From: Roseovarius aestuariivivens
GTDB lineage: Bacteria > Pseudomonadota > Alphaproteobacteria > Rhodobacterales > Rhodobacteraceae
Length of the DNA stretch: 64,000 nt
Assembly (NCBI RefSeq): GCF_004761875.1
Contig: NZ_SJEY01000002.1
Span: forward strand, 248,001-312,000
Reading direction: 5' to 3'
In this document: in pieces, positions 1 through 40,098 of the stretch
Layout: each line of letters opens with the position of its first letter
Numbering within the stretch: the stretch's first letter is position 1
Made by a program: the position numbers and the translations under genes
The notes under the pieces: model-generated
The model's database searches: none
What the model was told of the DNA's origin: nothing
The model's input: only the letters and a program-made list of their open reading frames with translations

Positions 1-1257
1 CATCTTGGCCGGGTGATCGAGGCCGAACCGGGCTTTGCGCATGCCCACGCGGTCAAGGGCCTGTTCTACATCCTGCTGGGTCGGCGCGAATTGATGGAGG
101 TGGCCACCGAGGCTTACCGCGCGGCACAAGACGCGCTGGCCCAAGGCAGTGCGACCGCGCGCGAGCGACGTTATGCCGAGGCGCTGCGCGTATGGCTGGA
201 GGGCCACCCGGGCGAAGCCGTGGACGCGTTGGAAGCGGTTCTGCGTGCGCATCCGGAGGACGCGCTGGCCATGAAGCTGAGCCACGCGATCCGCTTCGTT
301 CTGGGCGATGCGGCAGGCATGCGCGCCTCGGTCGAGCGGGTGCTTCCGGCCTATGCGCCCGACCATGCCGGGCGCGGCTATCTTCTTGGGTGTCACGCCT
401 TTGCGCTTGAGGAGACCGGCGCCTACGAGAAGGCCGAGATCGCCGGGCGGCAGGCCCTGTGGATGGCGCCCAACGATGCTTGGGGCCTGCACGCGGTCGC
501 GCATGTGCACGACATGACCGCCAATGCGAAAGCCGGTCTTGAGTGGCTGACGGGGCGCGAAGCGGCTTGGGCGCATTGCAACAACTTCCGCTACCATGTG
601 TGGTGGCACAGGGCTCTGATGCACCTCGATCTGGGCCAGACCGACACGGTGCTGGAGCTCTACGACCGGGAGATCCGCGAGGAGAAGACCGACGATTACC
701 GCGATATTTCGAACGCGACCTCGCTGCTGATGCGGCTTGAACTTGACGGGGTGGATGTGGGCCACCGCTGGGACGAACTGGCCGAGATCAGCGCGCGGCG
801 CACCGGGGACGGATGCCTGATTTTCGCCGATCTGCACTACCTGCTGGCCGTCGGCGGCGAGCGCGACGCGGAGGCGACCGCCCGCCTGGTGCAGCGCATC
901 GCGCGCGATGCGAAGTCCAACACCGAGATGGGCAGCCGGATGAGCGACCCGGGCGTGGCGGCGGCCAGGGGCCTGGAGGCCTTTGGCGAGGCGCGGTTCG
1001 ATGTTGCATTTCAAAACTTGGCACAGGCGCGGCCCGCCATGCAACGCGCGGGCGGCAGCCACGCCCAGCGCGACGTCTTTGAGCGGATGACCATCGACGC
1101 GGGCATTCGCGCCGGCTTTCTGGACCGGGCCGAGGCCATTCTGGATGAGCGGCAGGCGCAGCGGGCCGGACGCGAAGACGGCTACACCGCCGCGCGCCGC
1201 GAACTGATCGCGGCGGGACGCGGGGGCAGGCGGGCGGCCTCGGTGCCGGCGCAATAA
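1..1257 (+). CDS. TPR-repeat protein, TTC38-like (5' end outside window)
   Basis: The reading frame is open from base 1 through a possible GTG at 13, so the true start most likely lies upstream and only the C-terminal part is seen. The visible 414 residues are helical repeats with the spacing of tetratricopeptide motifs. They include paired His/Trp-rich segments (LHAVAHVHD and FRYHVWWHRALMHLD) that I associate with the tetratricopeptide repeat protein 38 family of bacteria and animals. TTC38 proteins have no established reaction; a scaffold or protein-binding role is the usual assumption. No signal peptide is visible in the part present. The gene ends 28 bp before opgC on the same strand, so the two may share a transcript, but nothing else links it to glucan synthesis. 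Confidence 0.75.
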   Translation, partial: HLGRVIEAEPGFAHAHAVKGLFYILLGRRELMEVATEAYRAAQDALAQGSATARERRYAEALRVWLEGHPGEAVDALEAVLRAHPEDALAMKLSHAIRFVLGDAAGMRASVERVLPAYAPDHAGRGYLLGCHAFALEETGAYEKAEIAGRQALWMAPNDAWGLHAVAHVHDMTANAKAGLEWLTGREAAWAHCNNFRYHVWWHRALMHLDLGQTDTVLELYDREIREEKTDDYRDISNATSLLMRLELDGVDVGHRWDELAEISARRTGDGCLIFADLHYLLAVGGERDAEATARLVQRIARDAKSNTEMGSRMSDPGVAAARGLEAFGEARFDVAFQNLAQARPAMQRAGGSHAQRDVFERMTIDAGIRAGFLDRAEAILDERQAQRAGREDGYTAARRELIAAGRGGRRAASVPAQ

Positions 1258-1285
1258 CCCAAGGGACAGCAGGAAAGTGACTAAC

Positions 1286-2539
1286 ATGGCGACAATTTCG
1301 CCATCATCGGACTACAGACAGGAGCGCGCCGCACCGGCCCGGGCGGACGCCGTCGCCAGCACGCGCGATCCGCGGCTCGACTTCTTTCGCGGGATCGCGA
1401 TGTTCATCATCCTGGTCGCGCATATCCCGGACAATCCGTGGACCGGATGGATCCCGGCGCGGTTCGGATTTTCGGACGCCACGGAAATATTCGTCTTCTG
1501 CTCGGGTATGGCCTCGGCCATCGCCTTTGGCGGCACCTTCGCGCGCAAAGGGTTCTGGATGGGCACCGCGCGCGTGGGCTATCGGACCTGGCAGGTTTAC
1601 TGGGCGCATATCGGGTTGTTCTTCTTCGTCGCGATGAGCATGGCCGCGCTGGACGCATCGGGCGCGTTCGAGAAAAGCTATGTCGATTCGCTCAACCTGC
1701 GCTGGTTCTTCGAGGACCCGCAAAGCCAGATCGTCGGCGCCTTCACGCTGACCTATGTGCCCAACTATTTCGACATCCTGCCCATGTACCTTGTGGTGCT
1801 GGCGATGATGCCGCTGATCGTGGCCGCGTCGCGGGTGCATCTTTGGGCCGTGGCGGGCCTGAGCGTGGGCGTGTGGCTTGCCGCGCAGGCGCAGCTTTTG
1901 TGGCTGCCGGCAGAACCGTGGTCGGATCGTGAGTGGTTCTTCAACCCGTTCGGCTGGCAACTTTTGTTTTTCACCGGCTTCGCCTTCATGATCGGATGGC
2001 TGCCCGCACCGCCAGTGTCGCGGCGGCTGATCTGGCTGGCCGTGGCTTTCGTGGTGCTGACCGCGCCGATCGGGTCGTGGAAGGTATTTGTGTGGGTCGA
2101 GGCCGCGCTGCCGTCGCTGGGCGAGGCGATCCGCGGGATCTGGAAGGTATTCCACACGGTCGAGGACGAGATCGGGTTCAACATCCGCGGCAAGACCGAT
2201 TTCGGGCTGCTGCGCTATCTGCATTTTCTGTCGCTCGCCTATCTGTGCTGGGTCGCGGTGGGCCGGGACGGCTGGCGGCTGCGCCAGGTGGCGGCGGGCG
2301 ACGCGGGCCGCGCCACCCAAAGCATTCTGGCGATGATCACCAAGGTCGGTCAGCAGTCGCTGGTGATCTTCGTCTTCTCGATGGCGCTGGCGCGCCTTCT
2401 GGGTGTGTTTCTGGACGTGTCCGGGCGCAGTTTTGCGACGGTCACCCTGGTCAATCTTATCGGCTTTGCCCTGATCATCGGGGTGGCCTATGGCGCGGCC
2501 TGGGTGAAATCCCAGCCCTGGCGGAGCAAGCGGACATGA
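1286..2539 (+). CDS. opgC: OpgC-type membrane acyltransferase (glucan succinylation)
   Basis: A 417-residue polytopic membrane protein with about ten hydrophobic segments. Near the N-terminus it has the 'RDPRLDFFRGIAMFIILVAH' stretch typical of the OpgC family. OpgC proteins transfer succinyl groups to osmoregulated periplasmic glucans, as shown in Rhodobacter sphaeroides. The next two genes are opgG and opgH, which supports that role over a generic acyltransferase. ATG at 1286 is chosen because AGGAAAG at 1271-1277 lies at a suitable distance; the upstream GTG at 1277 sits on top of that ribosome site. The stop codon overlaps the opgG start (ATGA), so the genes are translationally coupled. 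Confidence 0.87.
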   Translation: MATISPSSDYRQERAAPARADAVASTRDPRLDFFRGIAMFIILVAHIPDNPWTGWIPARFGFSDATEIFVFCSGMASAIAFGGTFARKGFWMGTARVGYRTWQVYWAHIGLFFFVAMSMAALDASGAFEKSYVDSLNLRWFFEDPQSQIVGAFTLTYVPNYFDILPMYLVVLAMMPLIVAASRVHLWAVAGLSVGVWLAAQAQLLWLPAEPWSDREWFFNPFGWQLLFFTGFAFMIGWLPAPPVSRRLIWLAVAFVVLTAPIGSWKVFVWVEAALPSLGEAIRGIWKVFHTVEDEIGFNIRGKTDFGLLRYLHFLSLAYLCWVAVGRDGWRLRQVAAGDAGRATQSILAMITKVGQQSLVIFVFSMALARLLGVFLDVSGRSFATVTLVNLIGFALIIGVAYGAAWVKSQPWRSKRT

Positions 2540-4038
2540 CCCTGAGCCGGCGCGGGTTTCTGTGTGGCACCACAGCGCTGGTGGTGGCGCCGCCGGTTTG
2601 GGCGACGGGCGGTGACGTGCCGTTTTCGCACGACACAGTGGTGACGCTGGCCCGCGAGCTGTCGGGCCAGCCGCACAGCCCGCGCGCGGAGGTGCCCAAG
2701 GCGTGGCGCGACCTGAGTTATGAAGCCTACCGGCACTACTGGTTCCGCACGGCGGACGCGCTCTGGTCGGGGACGGACAGGCCCTATGAGGTGGATTTCT
2801 TCCTGCCGGGGCTTTATTTTCCGCGCCCGGTGACGATCCACGAGGTGACCGGTGGCACCGCGCGCGCCCTGCCCTTCGATCTGACGCTCTTTGATCGCAC
2901 CGACGAGGCCGCGGATCTGCCGGTGGATGACACGCTGGGCTATTCGGGGTTCCGCCTGCGCACCGAACTGACGACGCCGGGGATCAAGAACGAGTTCTGC
3001 GTCTTTCAGGGGGCAAGCTATTTCCGGGCGCTGGGCATGGCGCAGGTGTACGGCCTGTCGGCGCGTGGCCTCGCGCTGCACACGGCGGACGAGCGAGGCG
3101 AGGAGTTTCCCGAGTTCACCCAATTCTGGATCGAAGCGCCCGCGCCCGGACAGCGCGTGATCGTGGTGCATGCGCTGCTCGAAAGCCCGAGCGTGACGGG
3201 CGCCTACCGGTTTGCCATCACGCCCGGGCCGGCCTGCGTGATGGAGGTGGAGGCGACGCTTTTCCCGCGCGAGGACCTGACCCATGTCGGGCTTGGGCCG
3301 CTCACGTCCATGTTTCTCTACGACGAGACCAACCGCACCCGCTTTGATGACTTCCGTCCGGCAGTGCATGACAGTGACGGGCTGATGATCTGGAACGGCG
3401 CGGGCGAGGTTCTTTGGCGTCCGCTGGCCAACCCCACGCGGCTTCAGGTGTCGAGCTTTCTCGACGACAGCCCACGCGGTTTCGGCCTGATGCAGCGGGC
3501 GCGTGAGTTGGAGGATTTCGCAGATCTGGAGGCGCTTTACCACGCGCGGCCGGGTCTGTGGGTCGAGCCCAAGGGCGACTGGGGCAAGGGCGCGGTGACG
3601 CTGGTTGAGATCCCCGCGGACAAGGAGATCTACGACAATATCGTGGCCTATTGGCGGCCGGCAGAGCCGATTCAGGCCGGAACAGAGACGAAAATCTCCT
3701 ATCGGCTGACCTGGGGCGCCACGGCCCCGGTCGAGACGGGCCTGCCCAGCGTGGTGAATACCCGGATGGGCGCGCGCGAAACAGGCGGGCGTATCGTCAC
3801 CGTGGATTTCGAGGCGCATGATCTTCTGGACGAAGGGCCCGAGGGTATTGAGGCCGTCATACACTCGCCGCATGTGACCCCGTCCCCCGGGGTGATCCAG
3901 CGCAATCCCGCGACCGGCGGGCTGCGCGTTGCCTTCAATTTCGATCCCGGCGAGCGGGAGCTGGTCGAGCTGCGCGCACAGCTTTTCAAGGATGGCCAGC
4001 CCGCGTCGGAAGTCTGGCTTTACCGGTGGACGGCATGA
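2536..4038 (+). CDS. opgG: Periplasmic glucan biosynthesis protein OpgG/MdoG
   Basis: 500 residues, the usual length for MdoG/OpgG. The N-terminus begins MTLSRRGFLCGTTALVVAPP, a twin-arginine-type signal peptide (SRR-G-F-L), so export through Tat is likely. The mature protein contains family stretches such as YWFRTADALW near residue 70, LPGLYFPRPV, and GYSGFRL. OpgG acts in the periplasm on the beta-glucan backbone made by OpgH, and the family is thought to be needed for branching or release. The open frame extends far upstream inside opgC, but ATG 2536 overlapping the opgC stop gives the signal peptide directly and is the evident start. The stop overlaps the opgH ATG at 4035, so opgC-opgG-opgH form a tightly coupled operon. 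Confidence 0.93.
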   Translation: MTLSRRGFLCGTTALVVAPPVWATGGDVPFSHDTVVTLARELSGQPHSPRAEVPKAWRDLSYEAYRHYWFRTADALWSGTDRPYEVDFFLPGLYFPRPVTIHEVTGGTARALPFDLTLFDRTDEAADLPVDDTLGYSGFRLRTELTTPGIKNEFCVFQGASYFRALGMAQVYGLSARGLALHTADERGEEFPEFTQFWIEAPAPGQRVIVVHALLESPSVTGAYRFAITPGPACVMEVEATLFPREDLTHVGLGPLTSMFLYDETNRTRFDDFRPAVHDSDGLMIWNGAGEVLWRPLANPTRLQVSSFLDDSPRGFGLMQRARELEDFADLEALYHARPGLWVEPKGDWGKGAVTLVEIPADKEIYDNIVAYWRPAEPIQAGTETKISYRLTWGATAPVETGLPSVVNTRMGARETGGRIVTVDFEAHDLLDEGPEGIEAVIHSPHVTPSPGVIQRNPATGGLRVAFNFDPGERELVELRAQLFKDGQPASEVWLYRWTA

Positions 4039-37926: not shown

Positions 37927-37944
37927 GGAGGGCTTTGGGGGGAG

Positions 37945-37997
37945 TTTTGTACAAAATGGACGTAGTTTTTTGGGGTGGGAGTCCATTTTGTACAAAA
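37945..37997. repeat. Perfect 17-bp inverted repeat with internal palindromes
   Basis: Arms at 37945-37961 and 37981-37997 are exact reverse complements around a 19-base spacer. Each arm contains the 12-bp palindrome TTTTGTACAAAA followed (or preceded) by TGGAC/GTCCA. It lies between the GC-rich mutT and the AT-rich ATPase-nuclease module. It could be a terminator-like hairpin for mutT, a mobile-element end, or a protein-binding site. There is no clean T-run after it. Confidence 0.85.
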
Positions 37998-38026
37998 GCT
38001 TTGGGGAACAAATTCGCTTCTCCTTG

Positions 38027-38057
38027 TTGAAAACGCTTCGGACCGTCGCTTTACAAT
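38027..38057 (+). promoter_or_regulatory. Candidate promoter of the ATPase-nuclease module
   Basis: TACAAT at 38052-38057 is a good -10. The best -35, TTGAAA at 38027-38032, is 19 bp away, longer than ideal. The transcript would begin about 70 bp before the ATPase start and include a small inverted repeat. Confidence 0.35.
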
Positions 38058-38099
38058 CTCGAAAGGTTTGGCAATCATGTTCCGTAGTGACCCGAACTG

Positions 38100-38122
38100 T
38101 CGGTAGCTTCAAACACTACCGA
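38100..38122. repeat. 7-bp inverted repeat just before the ATPase ribosome site
   Basis: TCGGTAG and CTACCGA flank 9 bases and end at the AAAAGGAG ribosome site (38122-38129). A hairpin here could hide the ribosome site, or the palindrome could be an operator for autoregulation. Confidence 0.45.
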
Positions 38123-38133
38123 AAAGGAGCCAA

Positions 38134-39474
38134 ATGTCCGAGATTTCATTCACTGATTTCCGAGGCTTTAAGAATCAGAGCTTCGTTAAAATTAAGCCTC
38201 TTACAGTTTTAGTTGGTGAAAATAGCGCTGGTAAAAGCTCTTTTCTGGCGGGCCTGAAGTATATAATTGATCTACTCAATATAAACTCAGAACCCTCGTT
38301 TAATTCCGATCCTTTTCAACTTGGTACGTTCCAACAGATTGCACACTTTCGGGGAGGACGAGGCGGTCGGGCGCGTGACTTTCGAATAAGACTTCGTTCG
38401 CAAGTTGACATGTCTAAGTTCTCCGTCAGTGACTTAAATGGCCGCCAAAGTTTTGATCTTTCGGCCACGTTTACTAACGCCGACTCCCAAGCATCAATTT
38501 CTACTTTAAGATTCTCCAGTGGCTCAAAAGCCTTAGAGCTTGCCGTCACATCTGACGGCGTCAAACTTGACTATGTTGGAACTCGCAATTCTCGCACTTC
38601 ATTGACAAAAGAAAGTACTTTTCCACTTACAATCGTAGACTTACCAAGAATTTGGTCATACGTTTTTCAAGATTTATCTTTTAGATTTAGCCCGCATGGC
38701 AACTTGTCTGATGATACTGAAATATCAGAGAGGATTAAGACTTCTATTTTTGAGTTGGCAAGTATTGCGTCTGCCGCAGGAAGTTCATTTCGACAGATGA
38801 CGCAAGCAACATCTGCGATTAGAACAAAGCCAAGTAGAACCTACACCCCAGGTGCTGAAGTCCAAGATGGTGAGGGCACGCATGTACCTTACGAAATTGC
38901 CAAACTCTACCGTTCACGATCAAAAAACAAAGATGAGTGGCAGTATTTTAAATCCGCAATTGAGGACTTTGGTACGTCTTCCGGAATGTTTAAGGAAATC
39001 TCCGTTAAGTCATTCGGAAGCACAACAAGCGATCCATTTCAAATACAATTTTCATCCGACGGTCCAAAGACCAATATCGTTGACTTAGGATATGGAACAA
39101 GTCAAGTTTTACCGATACTTTATGATATTACAAGATCTCCTAAAAGAAGCCGCTTTTTGATACAGCAACCAGAAGTACATCTCCACCCCAAGGCCCAAGC
39201 GGCACTCGGTCAATACTTTGTCGACGCATATAAGACCAGTGGCAAGACATTCGTTATTGAAACTCATAGTGACTTTATTGTTGATAGAATACGTAACGGT
39301 GTTGCTGAGGGAAAAATTTCTTTGGATGATATTTCAATTCTTTTCTTTAAAAGGAGCAAGTTGGAAAATCGTGTCGTACCAATTGAACTCGATGAGCGCG
39401 GTGATCCTGTGAATCCGCCAGATGATTATCGAAGTTTCTTCGTCGACGAACAAATGAAGATGTTAGGTCTTTAA
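38134..39474 (+). CDS. AAA15-type ATPase of a two-gene ATPase/PIN module
   Basis: 446 residues. Walker A GENSAGKSSF at 28-37 follows an SMC/OLD-like N-terminus (ISFTDFRGFKN). The C-terminal half has FLIQQPEVHLHPKAQ (Walker B region), FVIETHSDFIVDRIR (switch His), and a tail PPDDYRSFFVDEQ resembling DUF3696 ATPases. No TOPRIM nuclease domain is present, unlike OLD or GajA. Codon use is AT-rich, unlike all neighbours. AAAAGGAG supports ATG 38134. The partner PIN gene follows after 3 nt, so the pair is likely a unit in which the ATPase senses or controls and the PIN domain cuts. Such pairs are common among phage-defence systems; the role here is inferred. Confidence 0.85.
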   Translation: MSEISFTDFRGFKNQSFVKIKPLTVLVGENSAGKSSFLAGLKYIIDLLNINSEPSFNSDPFQLGTFQQIAHFRGGRGGRARDFRIRLRSQVDMSKFSVSDLNGRQSFDLSATFTNADSQASISTLRFSSGSKALELAVTSDGVKLDYVGTRNSRTSLTKESTFPLTIVDLPRIWSYVFQDLSFRFSPHGNLSDDTEISERIKTSIFELASIASAAGSSFRQMTQATSAIRTKPSRTYTPGAEVQDGEGTHVPYEIAKLYRSRSKNKDEWQYFKSAIEDFGTSSGMFKEISVKSFGSTTSDPFQIQFSSDGPKTNIVDLGYGTSQVLPILYDITRSPKRSRFLIQQPEVHLHPKAQAALGQYFVDAYKTSGKTFVIETHSDFIVDRIRNGVAEGKISLDDISILFFKRSKLENRVVPIELDERGDPVNPPDDYRSFFVDEQMKMLGL

Positions 39475-39477
39475 ATA

Positions 39478-39909
39478 TTGCCGATAATAGTTGATGCCAA
39501 CCGCTCAAGCGATTTCGCTCCGCCACAGTCAGAGCACGCGAAAGAAATCCTTCATCGAATTTCAACAAATAGAATGAGAATCTGCCTCGGCGGCAAACTT
39601 ACTAAAGAGCTTCTAAAAACTAAAATCTCATCTTTAATTCAGGAATGGATAAGGGCCGGAAGAGCACATCGCGTCAAAGATGACGAGATTGAGGAGAGAT
39701 CAAAACAATTATTGGGAAAGATAGATTCTGATGATGAGCACATTGTTGCACTAGCACAACTCACGGGTTGTAGGCTTCTTTTCTCTGACGACCAAGCGCT
39801 GATACGTGATTTCAAGAATACCCAACTGGTTTCTCCTAAGGGTAAAGTTGTAAAGTCTACAACTGAAGATAAGTTTGCCCGTCCATTATTTGAACGCTAC
39901 GGCGCTTAG
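39478..39909 (+). CDS. PIN-like nuclease, partner of the AAA15 ATPase
   Basis: 143 residues with the layout of a PIN-domain ribonuclease: first acidic residue Asp6 in PIIVDANRS, a middle acidic position probably Glu44 (LTKELL), Asp85/Asp86 in DSDDEHIVALAQLTG, and Asp104/Asp105 in LLFSDDQALIRDF. The start is TTG 39478, because the first catalytic strand lies right after it and no ATG or GTG is in frame upstream; AGG at 39465-39467 may serve as ribosome site. The weak start and 3-nt spacing suggest low, coupled expression relative to the ATPase. No antitoxin-like gene is adjacent, so the ATPase may restrain it. Confidence 0.75.
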   Translation: MPIIVDANRSSDFAPPQSEHAKEILHRISTNRMRICLGGKLTKELLKTKISSLIQEWIRAGRAHRVKDDEIEERSKQLLGKIDSDDEHIVALAQLTGCRLLFSDDQALIRDFKNTQLVSPKGKVVKSTTEDKFARPLFERYGA

Positions 39910-39999
39910 GCAACCGATGAGTAAGAAGACTTCATGTCCCCAAAAGCTAGCGCCGAAAAAAACCCGGTAATTACTTAGATTCATGCATTCCAAGCCGCA

Positions 40000-40098
40000 T
40001 CAAACCAATTTGTGCTCGATCTCCCCACGCTTGAAGTTATCAAAGACGTCGCAGTCGCGGATGTCGTCGTAGGTCTCGACCGCCATGTCGTGCCCAGC
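40000..40098 (-). pseudogene. Remnant resembling the 3' end of infB
   Basis: Read on the minus strand, the segment gives GHDMAVETYDDIRDCDVFDN, then FKRGEIEHKLV and a stop. The intact infB product ends [20 protein letters not shown], then [13 protein letters not shown] and a stop. Order, spacing and stop position correspond, with TYDDIR/NYDDIR, DV and EIE/EVE shared. There is no start or upstream match. It is in the same orientation as the intact infB end, about 0.7 kb away, so it is a diverged direct duplicate or an imported fragment. Confidence 0.6.

Follow-up and report, generated by a model that had tools for sequence, protein, structure and literature searches.

A recurrent ATPase–PIN-domain gene pair from an AT-rich insert in Roseovarius aestuariivivens: a candidate anti-phage module related to HEC-03

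The window analysed here, a stretch of 64,000 nucleotides of Roseovarius aestuariivivens DNA, contains two genes on the forward strand that follow one another with a gap of three bases: an ATPase gene (38134–39474; 446 aa, ATG start) and a gene encoding a 143-residue protein from a TTG start (39478–39909), an arrangement that the first-pass annotation of this DNA had described correctly. The same annotation had called the pair AT-rich and inserted between housekeeping genes, and both statements held. The GC content of the pair is 41.9 % versus 62.8 % in the rest of the window, where no other stretch of 1776 bases (taken outside the pair in steps of 100 bases) falls below 57.9 %, and the flanks are housekeeping-like, with ArgJ and a MutT-like gene upstream and InfB downstream; the identity of ArgJ is backed by sequence similarity, and those of MutT and InfB are our reading of the window ORFs. 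Judged by composition, the AT-rich insert reaches from the mutT side to the infB side at 37927–40000 (no strand assigned), with edges that are approximate and not exact to the base. The 17-mer TTTTGTACAAAATGGAC occurs as an inverted pair at 37945–37961 and 37981–37997, a short way ahead of the operon on its upstream side. Nine exact copies are present in the genome (the same string read backwards, used as a control, gave none), each of the remaining seven places has a nearby second arm containing GTACA and, as far as these copies tell, the 17-mer is a dispersed palindromic repeat.

The upstream gene product is assigned as an ABC/SMC-head ATPase (AAA_15/AAA_21, DUF3696-like) by Pfam (AAA_15, 1.4e-20; AAA_21, 4.4e-19), by PADLOC, by its AlphaFold2 model and by structural matches. 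The best single PADLOC model is NsnB (5.7e-44), followed by PDC-M55A (3.8e-32) and HEC-03B (2.7e-26), and the AriA models of PADLOC also match (1.3e-22); against NCBIfam, both this protein and its downstream partner gave only matches below cutoff. The AlphaFold2 model (pLDDT 91.7, pTM 0.92) has one ABC/SMC-type head with a short C-terminal part, to which the heads of SMC, Rad50 and PtuA match at Z scores of 18–21. The earlier claim that the ATPase lacks a TOPRIM domain is borne out by this single-headed model and by the Pfam matches, none of which is to TOPRIM up to an E-value of 1.

The downstream protein is far less conspicuous at the level of sequence. It matches Pfam PIN families below threshold only (0.02–0.03), has no match among the PADLOC models or in PHROGs, and a sequence-profile search for a solved PIN relative found none. 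Its AlphaFold2 model, built from a 70-sequence alignment, nevertheless reached a pLDDT of 94.2 and a pTM of 0.88, and Foldseek ranked VapC-type and other PIN proteins first, with a best E-value of 1.3e-3 and thus none at or below 0.001. In VIA-align the top match was the VapBC chain 5x3t_B (Z 10.3, rmsd 2.9 over 119 residues, 13 % identity); VapC chains matched at Z scores of 7–10, most of the top rows were named VapC or PIN, and protein-only RNase P was also among the structural matches. In relatives the signal is stronger, since Pfam PIN models match 50 of 70 family members at an E-value of 0.1 or less (best 4e-7). We are therefore confident that the small protein is predicted to have a PIN fold, as had been suggested from its sequence alone, and annotate it as a putative PIN-domain nuclease.

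To place the pair in a wider setting, 84,980 species genomes were scanned with an ATPase alignment, which gave at least 474 relatives, of which the best 80 were kept without regard to the PIN gene. At every one of these 80 loci a PIN sequence lies directly downstream of the ATPase gene, and at none upstream; the weakest best E-value for a downstream PIN sequence was 0.0034, and the intergenic gap was 10 bases or less in 68 of the 76 cases measured. The PIN sequence takes the form of an ORF of at least 125 aa at 72 loci (two of these, L027 and L052, apparently shifted at the start), of a full-length frame for which no start was listed at three and of fragments at five. Loci at which the PIN frame is broken while that of the ATPase is open were L022, L063, L069, L084 and L091; the broken frames, together with the starts at L027 and L052, could represent decay of a costly effector or errors of assembly. 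Within the 390 genomes of the order, six ATPase relatives other than that of the window were found. Three of these (L002/L004, L005 and L007) have a small protein of the PIN kind directly behind the ATPase, so that the pair is present in four of 390 genomes with the window's own included; the other three are a HEC-03 pair (L006), an Nsn-like locus (L009) and an ATPase with a 363-aa partner (L008). All five loci found in IMG/VR have PIN behind the ATPase, and, as three of them had fed the first profiles, the independent count from new viral contigs is two of two. The reciprocal approach, in which PIN profiles were used in 774 genome searches (398 by phylum and 376 by class, in overlapping samples), returned three strong matches other than our own (L121, L125 and L126), each preceded by an ATPase with the motif QQPEVHLHP; L121 and L125 seem to come from the genomes that had already given L020 and L076, which leaves L126 as the only new one. 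Two weak matches, L123 and L124, were rejected as PIN proteins of another kind, the stretch fetched around each lacking an ATPase. Distances among ATPases and among PIN proteins were correlated (Spearman 0.78, 73 pairs, equalled in 0 of 999 permutations), to which shared ancestry contributes. Across the fetched members of the family, the ATPase and PIN genes thus form, by all these sequence comparisons, one recurrent and conserved module of fixed order.

Conservation in this family extends to the presumed active sites of both proteins. The Walker A motif of the window ATPase, GENSAGKSS (residues 28–36, with Lys34; 38215–38241, plus strand), belongs to a GxNxxGK[ST] pattern found in 84 of 87 family ATPases, the exceptions being two short ORFs (L049 and L074) and L064. 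The switch histidine, His378 in ETHS (39265–39267, plus strand), lies in an xETHx motif present in 87 of 87, always as ETHS, and a G-x-GxxQ motif is likewise conserved. The earlier annotation was right about both the Walker A lysine and the switch histidine, but the Walker B motif that it had taken to be intact proved to be Gln344-Gln345 (39163–39168, plus strand; QQPEVHLHP), which by motif and alignment replaces both the Walker B and the catalytic acidic residue. By motif, QQ was present in 85 of 87 family ATPases, a count that is partly biased because one of the patterns used for searching had the second Gln as a fixed position; the ATPase of L012 has EQ, and that of L064, missed by motif, has QQ when read by eye. 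All six loci found independently of this pattern (L002, L005, L007, L121, L125 and L126) have QQ. At the aligned place OLD (6p74) and GajA have EE and the retron PtuA has DQ, and the Gln-Gln pair at the Walker B/catalytic site is, on the alignments, a trait of the family.

The acidic core of the PIN protein is conserved to a similar degree. Residue counts were made at 79 of 87 loci (four frames shorter than 125 aa and four loci without a listed ORF being left out), and the four acidic positions were kept in 75–79 of the 79: Asp6 (39493–39495) is Asp in 77, Glu44 (39607–39609) is Glu in 78 and Asp in one, Asp86 of the DDxH motif formed with Asp85 (Asp85-Asp86, 39730–39735) is Asp in all 79, and Asp105 (39790–39792) is Asp in 75, Glu in one and a gap in three, all on the plus strand. 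The two relatives without a match to Asp6 (L027 and L052, as judged from their starts) have an N terminus that looks frame-shifted. By likeness to VapC proteins, we take Asp6, Glu44, Asp86 and Asp105 to be the PIN catalytic set. Most relatives also carry Cys2 (69 of 79), a His close to the C-terminal end (55 of 79) and a C-terminal Cys, all three of which are lacking from the window copy; a metal site or a disulphide is possible for these residues.

Several lines of evidence indicate that the pair is an accessory and mobile element. When MutT was searched for in 30 genomes of the same genus, 28 matched, the window's own included, and in 27 of the 27 others the pair was absent beside mutT (up to 1.5 kb fetched per side); infB lay within the fetched 1.5 kb in 23 of these 27 and was not reached in L098, L104, L109 and L114. 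Because of this absence we regard the pair as an accessory element inserted within this lineage. The closest pair among the best 80 of at least 474 relatives is that of Roseivivax sediminis (ATPase identity 55 %), and the four window flanking proteins that were looked for in the 13.3-kb stretch around it were all absent. Among the picked neighbouring ORFs as a whole, 116 of 137 had no homologue among the others, a figure that is inflated by the mechanical choice of ORFs. At all 71 loci that could be tested the pair had a lower GC content than its flanks (mean −8.8 points), against 29 of 71 for random control segments of the same loci (mean +0.6), and at 55 of the 71 no other segment of the locus was as poor in GC; this test omits nine of the 80 loci, four without an ORF-based PIN and five with no more than 4 kb of flank. 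By composition, then, the pair looks horizontally acquired. The family loci carry about 20 phylum labels, which were taken from submitters' titles and come in part from bins that may contain stray contigs. On a tree of 90 ATPases, made by a quick method that gave long-branch warnings and leaving out three partial or doubtful ATPases, the 20 labels require 35 changes, where the minimum is 19 and shuffled labels require a mean of 55.3 (as few as 35 in 0 of 200 shuffles), so there has been clear inheritance within phyla along with repeated mixing.

The viral contigs give a more direct view of the setting of the pair. In L010 it lies between portal and terminase genes, in L011 behind an endolysin gene, in L138 it adjoins a primase-like gene, and in L139 (1800–6103), a viral contig of 42.8 kb, it adjoins a gene for a T7-type RNA polymerase (phrog_414, 1.2e-267), from which it would seem that phages of usually lytic types may carry the pair; L012 is not clearly phage. 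Used as a single query, the window PIN protein matched nothing among plasmids or the contigs of viruses and genomes, and two PIN queries (those of the window and L011) had none among 72,556 plasmids, so the family was reached through ATPase and alignment searches and not through single-sequence PIN searches. The ATPase matched 22 plasmid records, all at less than 60 % identity and mostly annotated as DUF3696 or AAA ATPase. Fourteen phage records matched the L011 ATPase, and the three inspected, all Peduoviridae phage records (L140, which is P2-EC5 ORF555/ORF333, L141 and L142), were set aside as more distant ATPases of the superfamily that lie outside this family, with EQ or EN motifs and partners of 333–338 aa without a PIN-profile match.

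The first-pass annotation had also raised the question of whether homologous pairs recur next to known defence genes. That the pair recurs is clear from the 80 of 80 loci (the best 80 of at least 474), but clear clustering with defence genes was not seen among the families listed, for which there was no control. Neighbours were a greedy pick of long ORFs, some of them spurious and those above 900 aa dropped first, and 136 of the 137 picked went into the family scans. Each PADLOC family listed had one or two members among these 136 (25 of 84 families listed, with no background control): PDC-S01, PDC-S48 and DEDDh had two each, and HEC-05, PDC-M19B, a type I S subunit and MTase III one each. The neighbouring Pfam families were mostly metabolic or housekeeping (25 of 127 listed), and one tRNA gene in total was found across the 60 of 80 loci scanned. 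With no defence-island pattern among the 136 immediate neighbours, as far as the listed families tell without a background control, the pair would seem in many cases to move by itself.

Of the systems compared, the nearest is HEC-03, a PADLOC candidate made up of HEC-03B and HEC-03A. According to PMC12988326, HECs are 'Hma-embedded candidates', several of which, HEC-06 included, have antiviral activity. Like our pair, HEC-03 has a DUF3696-like ATPase directly followed by a small protein with a VIDTN-type start; HEC-03B is homologous to the family ATPase along almost all of its sequence (hhalign probability 100, E 9e-48), and the alignment of HEC-03A with the PIN family spans 118 columns and matches their acidic positions to one another. 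However, the profile–profile probability between HEC-03A and the PIN family is only 28.5 %, the HEC-03A model matches none of 70 PIN members at E-values of 0.01 or less, and it has no match in the window's genome at 1e-6 or less. HEC-03B has EQPE where the family has QQPE, its model matches the window ATPase far less well than that of L006 (2.7e-26 versus 1.4e-134), and on the quick tree, with its long-branch warnings, a branch with 99 % SH-aLRT support separates the family from four HEC-03B rows and sets apart six rows in all (HEC-03B, NsnB and L008). Our reading of these alignments and trees is that the ATPase–PIN pair is probably a sister of HEC-03 and not a member of it. L008 itself (94–3077) has a DUF3696-like ATPase of 630 aa with EQPE and a 363-aa partner starting MPNILVDTALL, which matched no Pfam (E 0.1) or PADLOC (E 0.01) model and bore no likeness to P2-EC5 ORF333; it is possibly another ATPase–effector pair.

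The remaining systems share one component or the general design. Among the single PADLOC models NsnB fits the ATPase best, yet at the Nsn-like locus L009, whose ATPase has the motif ENPE, NsnC (1.3e-91) takes the place of a PIN protein directly after the ATPase, and NsnC matched neither the window PIN nor the 70 PIN members. PARIS also keeps its ABC ATPase and nuclease separate, and its AriA models match the ATPase, but AriB is a Toprim nuclease according to PMC12409363, whereas the partner here is PIN, and the AriB models matched neither the window PIN nor the 70 members. The PtuA proteins of Septu and retrons are among the closest solved folds of the ATPase (Z about 20), and the retron PtuA likewise has Gln at the catalytic Glu position; it keeps the Walker B Asp, however, and PtuB, an HNH nuclease in the same paper (PMC12409363), differs from the PIN fold seen here, the PtuB models matching one of 70 PIN members, at 0.0064. 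Unlike the ATPases of OLD and Gabija, that of the window has 446 aa and no fused TOPRIM. VapBC shares the predicted PIN fold with its acidic core, but the upstream partner here is a 446-aa ATPase and not a small VapB-type antitoxin. PMC13092281 describes two validated defence systems of DefensePredictor that use a PIN domain, DS-3 and DS-5, of which the former is a single protein and the latter combines PIN with a DUF5830/AcrIF4-like partner. None of the PADLOC models recognises the PIN family, as judged from the window protein and the 70 members, and a search of the openly licensed PubMed Central literature found no description of the pair, of which an earlier mention is possible. The first-pass remark that no named system with exactly this pair was known agrees with this as regards the nuclease, but the architecture has a precedent in HEC-03; what we read as new is a PIN effector with a QQ ATPase within the known ATPase-plus-nuclease design of immunity.

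The explanation that we favour, and consider probable, is that the pair is a horizontally mobile two-gene conflict module, most likely directed against phage, in which the ATPase restrains a PIN RNase; phage defence is what we infer from the evidence as a whole, and the portal/terminase, endolysin, RNA polymerase and primase neighbours in viral contigs were counted in favour of a mobile conflict module. In the mechanism that we propose, the ATPase would bind ATP and form a stable ATP-bound assembly that holds PIN in check, with hydrolysis slow or absent owing to QQ in place of the Walker B and catalytic acids. Exchange of Glu for Gln at the catalytic site of ABC proteins is a standard engineered way of trapping ATP, and it is from this and the QQ site that the ATP-locked assembly is proposed. 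A phage-derived signal would then change the assembly so that PIN is freed or activated; the freed PIN would cut RNA, most plausibly tRNA or another RNA of translation, as VapC and AriB do, whereupon translation would stop and the phage could not multiply. In PARIS, according to PMC12409363, AriA holds AriB inactive and, on the sensing of a phage protein, AriB cuts tRNA; the same paper has PtuB of Retron-Eco7 degrading specific tRNAs. The analogy with PARIS and the VapC-like fold led us to propose a PIN protein that is caged by the ATPase and freed on infection.

Other explanations have to be weighed against this one. The pair may instead be a toxin–antitoxin addiction module, with PIN as a growth-stopping RNase, the ATPase as its antidote and any protection against phage incidental. 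The VapC-type proteins that head the structural matches of PIN would suit such a module, as would the small operon, its patchy spread and lone insertion in the window, and the PIN genes found in pieces at five of 80 loci or shifted at L027 and L052, as if the protein were costly, with assembly errors possible there. An ATPase of 446 residues would be an unusual antitoxin, however, the structurally related ATPases PtuA and AriA serve defence systems, and plasmids, which are rich in addiction modules, gave no match to the two PIN queries, so we think this explanation rather unlikely. Against the defence reading itself stand the want of a defence-island signal among the neighbour families listed, the single tRNA gene in the 60 of 80 loci scanned and a clustering of labels that reflects much inheritance within phyla; what the pair carries may also serve addiction and not the sensing of phage.

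A second alternative, in which a standing ATPase–PIN complex degrades invading nucleic acid directly without shutting down the host, we consider improbable: PIN domains of the VapC-like fold are mostly RNases, and both Walker B acids are lost here where the retron PtuA keeps its Asp, even if PtuA is one of the nearest structural matches of the ATPase (Z about 20) and Septu is listed as degrading the phage genome in a table of a review (PMC12948488). That the two genes might be a housekeeping pair for RNA processing, with no role in conflict, is suggested by the often housekeeping or metabolic Pfam domains of the neighbours (25 of 127 families listed) and by the structural match to protein-only RNase P, but seems very improbable for a pair that is missing beside mutT in all 27 other genomes of the genus, is rare in the order (four of 390 genomes, own included), is GC-poor relative to its own locus in 71 of 71 cases and is present in viral contigs. 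The three observations named beforehand as contrary to a defence role, namely a position confined to the core of related genomes, an ATPase of a housekeeping family and the lack of an acidic PIN core, did not appear.

A bolder form of the favoured anti-phage explanation, which we put forward tentatively and hold to be possible rather than probable, is that the family is an unnamed, pan-bacterial and phage-borne form of immunity in which a naturally hydrolysis-deficient QQ ATPase of the SMC type locks PIN until a phage signal breaks the cage. If true, it would, together with HEC-03, make up a second great branch of ATPase–nuclease immunity beside the one with TOPRIM and HNH. Near-perfect linkage across about 20 phylum labels and a nuclease invisible to PADLOC point to an overlooked system, as a PADLOC scan at best labels the ATPase by its relatives and misses the nuclease. 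Should the pair defend, PIN would join TOPRIM and HNH as effectors of ABC-type sensors, and the conserved QQ site would allow one to test directly whether sensors of this type depend on ATP hydrolysis at all. The RNA target of PIN is proposed by analogy. At L006 (739–3337) the PIN-like gene of the HEC-03 pair overlaps by four bases a gene for an RNA ligase (PF09414, 2.7e-32), an arrangement that suggests that RNA is damaged and repaired in the sister system and hints at an RNA target there.
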